Made by a program: the position numbers and the translations under genes. Shown in pieces: positions 9,846 through 28,948 of a stretch of 47,023 nt of DNA. Origin of the DNA: Candidatus Gastranaerophilales bacterium (GTDB lineage Bacteria; Cyanobacteriota; Vampirovibrionia; Gastranaerophilales; Gastranaerophilaceae); contig CALUTL010000015.1 in the NCBI GenBank assembly GCA_944323655.1, forward strand, positions 1-47,023. Direction: 5' to 3'. Every line of letters begins with the position of its first letter. Positions within the stretch are counted from its first letter, which is position 1. Under the pieces are notes generated by a model that worked only from the letters and a program-made list of their open reading frames with translations, did no database searches and was not told the DNA's origin.

Positions 9846-10817
9846 TTACAAAATACATGCCAGCACCATTAAGAGTAACGTACCTATTTGTACGGCAGTT
9901 GTAATATTTTGCGAGAACTTGTTTGTATCGTACTTATCGGCAGATTTTTGAGCCTTGTAAGCGCTTGAAATACGATTAATTCTGGTTTCATTATCGTCTG
10001 ATCCGAAATTAGTACCGAACATAGCGCTTTCCAATCTAGAAAGGCGGTTTTCTGTCGAATCATTTTTGTAGGTTTTATCAAGAATATTTTTTTCGACCGT
10101 AGTAAGACTGTACTTTTTACCGCTGTCAGCAACTCGAGAATAATTTTGAGCATCAAAACTATCCTGCATAGCTTTTTGGCGAGCATTAAAACTGTCATAA
10201 CCGAAATCATCATAAGTCTGGTATTTATCCAAATGATAATCAGAAGCCAACGGCGGCACATAATCATCATAAAAATCATTTGAAGATTGCGCGATGTAAT
10301 TATCCATAAGAGATCTTGGCTTAATTTCTGCCTTCAGCCTGTCAGTACGTGTTGCCAAATCGTCATTAGAATATTCTTTCCCGAAAGTTTCCATCTCTAA
10401 TTTTGAAAGCCTTTTTTTAATATCTTCTTTAGGAGTGACTTTATTAAAAACAATTTCTTCAAGCTCGTCAACCGCAGGATAAGTTATATTTGAGGAGGCA
10501 ACAGGGGCATCTTCAATTTCAAAATTATCTTCAGCAAAAGTATCAGTCGTCGGCTCTATTTCCTGTCCGATTAAATCTGCCGACATATCCTTCTTCAACC
10601 TTGCAATCCTCTGTGCTGCGGGCTTTGCTGAAACAGTACCGTAAACCGTATTTTCAAGACGATCAAGCCTTGAGGTTTCATTTTCAGATGAGTAAGTAAA
10701 ACCGTAAAGCGAATTTTCAAGCTTATCAATAACCTGCGCGTTATTTTCCGCATAGGCAGCTGAAGAACTTAAGGCCAAACCCAAAATAATACCGATTGTA
10801 AGAATTTGTTTTTTCAT
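9846..10817 (-). CDS. Exported protein with six LExxxFG/RLxRLE repeats and a C-terminal membrane anchor
   Basis: A 323-residue protein with a clear signal peptide (MKKQ... to AYA, cleavage about residue 23) and a hydrophobic C-terminus (about 305-323). Between them are six copies of a ~22-residue unit, roughly hxxhExxh(F/Y)(G/N)xx(Y/F)x7RhxRhE, at about 30-54, 51-75, 116-141, 138-162, 238-263 and 259-284. The RLxRLE end of one copy doubles as the start of the next. The middle (165-225) is rich in Asp and Tyr. The protein at 27358-28452 has the same unit. I do not know a family name. An AAGGAG ribosome site lies 7 bases before the ATG and is complementary to an arm further up the leader (see 10818-10882). 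Confidence 0.85.
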   Translation of the reverse strand: MKKQILTIGIILGLALSSSAAYAENNAQVIDKLENSLYGFTYSSENETSRLDRLENTVYGTVSAKPAAQRIARLKKDMSADLIGQEIEPTTDTFAEDNFEIEDAPVASSNITYPAVDELEEIVFNKVTPKEDIKKRLSKLEMETFGKEYSNDDLATRTDRLKAEIKPRSLMDNYIAQSSNDFYDDYVPPLASDYHLDKYQTYDDFGYDSFNARQKAMQDSFDAQNYSRVADSGKKYSLTTVEKNILDKTYKNDSTENRLSRLESAMFGTNFGSDDNETRINRISSAYKAQKSADKYDTNKFSQNITTAVQIGTLLLMVLACIL

Positions 10818-10882
10818 ATTGCAACTCCTTAAAGACAGAATAAAGTTTTGCGTGATTGAAAACTATTCTACGAAGCTGCAAT
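10818..10882 (-). promoter_or_regulatory. Possible ribosome-site-masking stem in the leader of the repeat-protein gene
   Basis: On the minus-strand RNA, ATTGCAGCTTC (rc of 10872-10882) can pair over 11 positions, two of them G-U, with GGAGTTGCAAT (rc of 10818-10828). The second arm contains the GGAG ribosome site and abuts the ATG. The loop is 43 nt. The second repeat-protein gene has an unrelated sequence with the same arrangement. Confidence 0.45.
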
Positions 10883-26779: not shown

Positions 26780-27268
26780 TTAGCCCTCCAGTTGTTCAAG
26801 CTGTCTTAGAATTTCTGCGTCTTCTTCTTCCTCCTGACGCTCCTGCGACTGCCTGAAAAATCGCTGAACTCCGAGTTCGGAATATCCTTTTAATTCTGCT
26901 TTCTTTTCTTCTTCAAGATATGCCTCTCGACTCTTCTCTTTGTGTTTCTCAAGAACTTTAACCGCCTGCTCAAGCTTTACAAGTTTTGCTTTTTCTATAT
27001 CTAATATTCTTTGAGCTTCAGCGCGTATCTGTTCAAGCTGCTCTGCCTTCTCCCAAAGATGTATAAGGTATTTATCATAAATATCATACATCATCGGATC
27101 CGCTTTTCGCATATTTATCTGTGTGTCACGAATTTCTTCGTTGTTTTTGCGGATGTTTTCTTCTGCAATAAATACCGCCTGCTGGGCTTTTTGAACAACA
27201 AGTAACTGTTCTTCTTTCTTTCTTATTCTGAAATCAAGTACTTTTTGCAGTCTGTATCTAAAAGGCAT
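26780..27268 (-). CDS. fliJ: Flagellar export chaperone FliJ
   Basis: A 162-residue almost entirely coiled-coil protein with the family start FRYRLQKVLDFRIRKKEEQL. FliJ sits in the export ATPase (FliI) ring and recycles chaperones. Heptad-like charged helices run through the whole length. FliI, usually just upstream, is absent; a promoter and an unrelated gene are found instead. First gene of a three-gene operon with no gaps. Confidence 0.85.
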   Translation of the reverse strand: MPFRYRLQKVLDFRIRKKEEQLLVVQKAQQAVFIAEENIRKNNEEIRDTQINMRKADPMMYDIYDKYLIHLWEKAEQLEQIRAEAQRILDIEKAKLVKLEQAVKVLEKHKEKSREAYLEEEKKAELKGYSELGVQRFFRQSQERQEEEEDAEILRQLEQLEG

Positions 27269-28453: not shown

Positions 28454-28499
28454 TTTTTCTCCTGTTACTCTTCTTTTATAAGTTATTACAGGAGAAAAA
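28454..28499 (-). promoter_or_regulatory. Leader inverted repeat masking the ribosome site
   Basis: On the minus-strand RNA, TTTTTCTCCTGT pairs perfectly over 12 bp with ACAGGAGAAAAA, which contains AGGAG and ends one base before the ATG at 28452. The loop is 22 nt. The first arm can also pair with GAGAAAA immediately upstream, giving a possible competing fold. A terminator is unlikely because the second arm is followed by the start codon, not by a U-run. Confidence 0.65.
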
Positions 28500-28519
28500 T
28501 TTTCTCATTATCCGGCAGG

Positions 28520-28948
28520 CTATTCTGAAGGGTTATTTTGATCAATACTTTCTTCTATAGCATCTTGCTTACCATTTTCAAACGTAGAAATTATAGAAAT
28601 AAATATAAAAGCTCCAATACAACCAATTAAATAAGACAAAGGAACAGCTAAAATAAATAACAAAATTGCAAGAACTGAGTTCCACAATTTTTTGCAAGTC
28701 ATTACAGCACAACCTACACTTACCGAAAAGATCATACCAAAAATCGGTCCCCATATATGTCCAATTTTTGTACCTATCGCAATACCATTTACTCCACATG
28801 CGACCTCATTAAACTTACAATAAGAAATTGAAATTACGGCACAAAAAAGACCCGCAAGTAAGCCGCCAACTAATACATAAACTATATAAAATCCTAAAGC
28901 ATTTAACCCGCTTCTTTTTACTGATAAATCAAATAAATTCTTAAACAC
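28520..28948 (-). CDS. Unknown small membrane protein
   Basis: A 142-residue protein with a GTG start (AGAGGTG upstream) and three or four hydrophobic segments (about 17-43, 63-84, 91-120). It has several cysteines (YCKFNEVACG, VGCAVMTC, IGCIG). The C-terminus is acidic. No family recognised. It follows recO by 10 bp and is probably the last gene of the pilT-recO transcript. Confidence 0.7.
   Translation of the reverse strand: MFKNLFDLSVKRSGLNALGFYIVYVLVGGLLAGLFCAVISISYCKFNEVACGVNGIAIGTKIGHIWGPIFGMIFSVSVGCAVMTCKKLWNSVLAILLFILAVPLSYLIGCIGAFIFISIISTFENGKQDAIEESIDQNNPSE

Follow-up and report, generated by a model that had tools for sequence, protein, structure and literature searches.

A perfect 12-bp hairpin in the mRNA leader of P1, a gene for a secreted repeat protein of Candidatus Gastranaerophilales bacterium, encloses the Shine-Dalgarno (SD) sequence of that gene, and masking of this site is predicted almost throughout the genus. 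From these comparisons we infer, with a probability of about 0.6, that the hairpin sequesters the SD and represses P1 translation. SD-sequestering leaders are a known kind of control element; the P1 leader itself is new, and a literature search for it found no description. Post-transcriptional control has been little explored in the non-photosynthetic gut relatives of Cyanobacteria, and the genome considered here, a MAG of gut Melainabacteria, is without CsrA and Hfq. The P1 leader offers a concrete, testable control element on a fast-evolving secreted protein, encoded beside flagellar-type genes in a genome with no detectable flagellin.

Results

The ribosome site of P1 lies within a perfect stem

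The window, that is, the whole stretch of DNA analysed, is 47,023 nt long, and all features described in it here are on the minus strand. Read directly from 5′ to 3′ on that strand, the leader runs TAATGAGAAAA TTTTTCTCCTGT AATAACTTATAAAAGAAGAGTA ACAGGAGAAAAA C ATG AAG. The 5′ or anti-SD arm, TTTTTCTCCTGT (28488..28499), is 100% complementary over 12 bp to the 3′ arm, ACAGGAGAAAAA (28454..28465), and a 22-nt loop (28466..28487) lies between the two. The SD, AGGAG (28459..28463), is contained in the 3′ arm, 6 nt 5′ of the ATG (28452-28450), and is invariant across all aligned relatives. A single base (28453) separates the 3′ arm from the start codon. The sequence-only reading had described this stem, its coordinates and loop, the enclosed ribosome site and the one-base spacing to the ATG exactly. 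Folding of the 111-nt leader, which it had proposed as a check, gave −24.6 kcal/mol (z = −3.7), a value equalled by none of 200 shuffles. In most relatives a further, inner stem (AACUUU..AGAGUU) can form inside the loop, separated from the outer stem by a 3-nt bulge.

The same reading had stated that the hairpin is not a terminator, and we reject an intrinsic terminator as well: C-ATG directly follows the stem, without a U-run, and a terminator search called none there. A mobile or repeated element was also rejected, as the hairpin occurs at a single place in the genome. When Rfam covariance models were searched against the window, only tRNAs scored above the gathering score; the P1 leader matches no Rfam family, its best sub-threshold match being Mu-gpT-DE (E 1.3).

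The 364-aa product of P1 (27358..28452) carries a signal peptide and a short repeat, R-x-x-[LIV]-E-x-x-x-[YF]-[GN], present in several copies; no family in Pfam, PHROGs or NCBIfam reaches its cut-off for this protein. A plasmid search for P1 returned no match. The upstream gene (28520..28948), which has a weak DUF6773 match, ends with a stop codon 67 nt before P1 and is itself preceded by recO and a PilT-like ATPase gene; these three genes and P1 probably form one operon. On the 3′ side lies a fliJ-like gene (26780..27268), followed by a fliK-like gene. All 14 genomes of the genus set, among which G000 is the genome of this contig, share the arrangement of P1 behind recO and the DUF6773-like gene and ahead of fliJ and fliK. 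Besides its fliJ-like and fliK-like genes, G000 has a FliA-type sigma factor (above cut-off), yet a search of the whole genome for the flagellin N-terminal domain found none, which suggests that its flagellar system is reduced or repurposed.

Stems of this length over an SD are rare in the genome

Ranks were obtained from a 1.25 Mb sample of the genome that includes the window, with about 1,130 genes called by a simple ORF rule; these calls are rough, with a slight effect on the ranks. Among 1,123 gene starts, just one has a perfect Watson-Crick stem across the SD window that is longer than that of P1 (15 bp). This start is without an SD, and the P1 stem is thus the longest perfect stem over a recognisable SD in the sampled gene starts. 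When the SD was kept and the remainder of the leader was dinucleotide-shuffled, 12 bp was not reached once in 20,000 shuffles. Opening the SD of P1 is predicted to cost 9.3 kcal/mol, a value in the top 1.1% of 731 genes that have an SD. When G-U pairs and longer loops were permitted in a mixed score, P1 ranked 6th of 1,121.

Masking is kept by paired changes in the genus

A masking fold is predicted for the P1 leaders of 13 of the 14 genus genomes. Their SD-opening costs range from 6.5 to 14.2 kcal/mol, against a median of 1.65 for the genes of G000, and all fall within the top 3.3% of these genes. The exception is G193, whose leader is predicted to be open (0.5 kcal/mol). The genus leaders share an SD arm of ACAGGAG, or a close variant, together with an upstream arm capable of pairing with it. 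The two arms have changed in step, as seen by comparing TTTTTCTCCTGT/ACAGGAGAAAAA in G000 with AATCTCCTGTTG/CAACAGGAGATT in G175, AATCTTC/GGAGATT in G143 and CTTCTGT/ACAGGAG in G194. A stable helix pairing with the SD is therefore kept by compensatory change, the feature by which SD-sequestering leaders are recognised.

Pair counts gave two-sided changes at 8 pairs, with 77% of cells paired compared to 48-56% in slid controls. The covariation score was matched by 3 of 500 shuffles, a count that overstates significance because the sequences are related. RNAalifold returned a weak 9-pair consensus (−4 kcal/mol). Because the alignment was not fitted to structure, G143 is misaligned within it and the RNAalifold consensus is weak, we rate the apparent covariation of the arms as good rather than overwhelming. 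Within the outer stem, conservation is highest where the SD and its flanking bases are paired (columns 25-29 with 54-58), not in the outer part; bases of the loop and inner stem (TAACTTTTA ... GAAGAG) are likewise conserved. With a covariance model trained on 13 leaders, the P1 leader was recovered from all 14 genomes (E ≤ 1.1e-10), although those 13 leaders account for 13 of the matches and the leader of G191 is almost the same as one of them.

The sequence-only reading had named the loss of complementarity in relatives that keep the gene as the finding that would tell against it. Within the genus masking stays, with G193 as the one departure; the picture outside the genus is less favourable. 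P1 orthologs adjoin fliJ in many other genera, with different upstream neighbours, and their leaders cannot be aligned with those of the genus. Some carry strong masking stems of unrelated sequence (L100, where AAACTCTCCT pairs with AGGAGAGTTT, as well as L027, L026/L089 and L088), whereas several orthologs have none. The median SD-opening cost of orthologs outside the genus is 4.1 kcal/mol, compared to 1.65 for the genes of G000. These varied leaders and this median argue that predicted SD masking is enriched in the wider P1 family, not universal.

An AATG is conserved ahead of the stem

Comparison of the relatives' leaders revealed a conserved AATG (28506..28509), a candidate for either the start of a leader ORF or a promoter element. 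Its ATG is located 56-58 nt 5′ of the P1 start in all 14 genus members, where it is preceded by A and usually by TA, while between 11 and 39 nt separate it from the upstream stop, depending on the genome. In G000 the candidate leader ORF (28508-28476) has 10 codons, MRKFFSCNNL*, and passes through the first arm. In 7 of the 14 genomes an ORF of 10-12 codons crosses the 5′ arm and ends within the loop region. In G194 it extends to 34 codons, past the P1 start codon, and in the other six (G104, G124, G191, G050, G193 and G143) it is reduced to 1-4 codons, being simply ATG TGA in three of them. A coding leader peptide is thus unlikely to be the conserved feature. No good SD was found before the conserved AUG in the genus leaders.

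In translation attenuation of the ermC type, a short leader ORF overlaps the anti-SD arm. The seven P1 leaders with 10-12 codons resemble this arrangement; the genus leaders differ from it in the six very short ORFs and the one that passes the start codon, and no inducer or stalling peptide is known for P1.

An AAT-type match is present in the scanned stretch of 65 of 68 leaders of the genus and family, 48 of them AATG, counts that are biased upward since the site was picked by score within a window and some genomes contribute two loci. Some other genera read AATT or AATA at the motif. In L100 and L170 an apparent terminator lies directly before it, which implies that transcription starts there. 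No clear -35 partner was found, only weak columns, some of which belong to the end of the coding sequence upstream. TAATG shows no clear excess before SD stems genome-wide and was rejected as a motif of promoters or leaders in general, so conservation of the AATG is specific to these leaders. Its fixed position fits either a ribosome-opened leader or a promoter element.

Discussion

How the P1 hairpin may be opened

If the hairpin acts as we propose, P1 translation would be repressed unless the first arm is occupied. The sequence-only reading had called the leader a translational switch. The masked SD and the paired changes lend good support to translational control within the genus; the two-state form of the switch, in which the first arm would pair instead with GAGAAAA just upstream and free the ribosome site, is not conserved, as this alternative pairing is present only in G000 and G078 (2 of 14 relatives).

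The opener could be a ribosome that has finished translating the upstream gene and reinitiates, or else one that loads at the conserved AUG just before the stem. With a ribosome on this AUG, the anti-SD bases (at about +14 to +18, counted from the AUG) would be covered and the SD freed, and P1 output would thereby be tied to translation of its own transcript. We tentatively rank such a ribosome first among possible openers, because when bound at the AUG it would reach the anti-SD bases and because, in one of the two established models of coupling, upstream ribosomes unfold the RNA (PMC12548453). The fixed distance of the AUG from the P1 start, beside the variable distance to the upstream stop, points in the same direction. 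On the other hand, the leader ORF is very short in six genomes and its AUG lacks a good SD, while the AATT or AATA of some genera and the terminators of L100 and L170 would suit a promoter better.

The P1 leader can be compared to the SD-sequestering leaders of coupled genes (rpmI-rplT, MS2 coat-lysis), in which an intergenic hairpin likewise masks the downstream SD in an apparent operon; its 67-nt spacing is comparable to the +52 nt of rpmI-rplT (PMC12548453). It differs from them in that 20 nt separate the upstream stop from the P1 stem, so that upstream ribosomes normally would not enter it, and in that a conserved AUG without a clear SD stands between this stop and the stem.

Alternatively, an RNA-binding protein or small RNA might recognise the hairpin, through its inner stem and loop, or the 5′ arm, and so hold or release the SD; we consider such a trans-acting switch doubtful. 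Bases of the inner stem and loop are conserved too, and masking is strong, so that an opener would be needed if P1 is made in quantity. Against this, the leader has no Rfam match, and to our knowledge its loop is too small for most known aptamers. Flagellar leaders controlled by CsrA, of the hag type, have a GGA overlapping the SD. The P1 leader also has an SD-overlapping GGA, near flagellar-type genes, but in this genome, which is 99.9% complete, profile searches found neither CsrA (PF02599) nor Hfq (PF17209) and did find the control profiles. Since neither protein is encoded, we rejected both a CsrA-regulated leader and a target of Hfq-dependent small RNAs. Of the protein and small RNA options raised by the sequence-only reading, these two routes are thus weakened; the argument does not extend to every protein or small RNA.

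It is unlikely that the hairpin is a static brake, merely setting a low, fixed rate of P1 translation relative to its operon neighbours. Such a role would agree with the position of P1 within a probable operon (recO upstream, fliJ/fliK downstream), with a stem predicted to be closed over a wide temperature range, and with the relatives' leaders, in which no conserved alternative fold was seen. However, a weak SD would achieve the same with less sequence, and conservation of the inner stem and of the distance to the AUG hints at a further role.

A hairpin that stabilises or processes the RNA at a 5′ end or between genes, with SD masking as a side effect, is improbable. The AATG may be promoter-proximal, as suggested by the terminators before it in L100 and L170, which would place the hairpin at a 5′ end, but the part of the outer stem that is best conserved pairs with the SD and its flank and not further out. 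We regard chance complementarity kept by common descent as very improbable. The genomes all come from a single genus, and the SD arm is under constraint in any case, yet the shuffled leaders never reached 12 bp, diverged relatives carry paired changes, and all but one keep the masking.

Least probable of all is an RNA thermometer, in which heat would melt the stem and expose the SD: P1 shares with ROSE, FourU and prfA-type thermometers an SD paired in a leader hairpin near the start codon, but its 12-bp stem is perfect and predicted to stay closed beyond 60°C (at 60°C opening the SD is still predicted to cost 6.1 kcal/mol, compared to 9.3 at 37°C, which also makes the temperature option of the sequence-only reading unlikely), several relatives have a higher opening cost, and the temperature of a gut organism is near constant.

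Other masked leaders in these genomes

P2, a paralogous repeat-protein gene of the window (9846-10817, minus strand), shares its repeat with P1 (E 8.5e-7). Its leader (10818-10882, minus strand) has a different SD-masking fold, made of an outer stem, ATTGCAGCTTC/GGAGTTGCAAT, and an inner stem. Across ten genus genomes this leader is 88% conserved and shows paired changes. The P2 leader gave no Rfam match above the gathering score.

A 2-hydroxyacid dehydrogenase gene on contig 3 (L185, from G000:C3:80155 on; L186-L196) carries an SD-masking hairpin in 12 genus genomes. This hairpin displays the strongest covariation of all, with a 15-bp helix, 97% of cells paired and a score matched by 0 of 500 shuffles. 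It may also act as a terminator, because a T-run after the stem fills the space between SD and ATG and reaches the ATG.

Independently covarying masking leaders on two further genes of the genus suggest that this mode of control is used repeatedly. The P2 and dehydrogenase leaders were noticed through a model match or a high rank, so they illustrate a style and give no measure of its frequency. One could speculate, with little confidence, that a general style of gut Melainabacteria is at work, in which the masked sites of P1, P2 and the dehydrogenase gene all need active opening, those of P1 and the dehydrogenase by the footprint of a ribosome loading at an AUG and not by a peptide. We also observed that in the leader of a gene for a secreted protein, G000:C14:13083 (minus strand, EIKFDNQNFTLKATA...), the SD arm AAAAGGAAAAATTATA pairs with the upstream TGTAATTTTTTCTTTT; a related gene of G104 (L091, G104:C1) has a similar leader.
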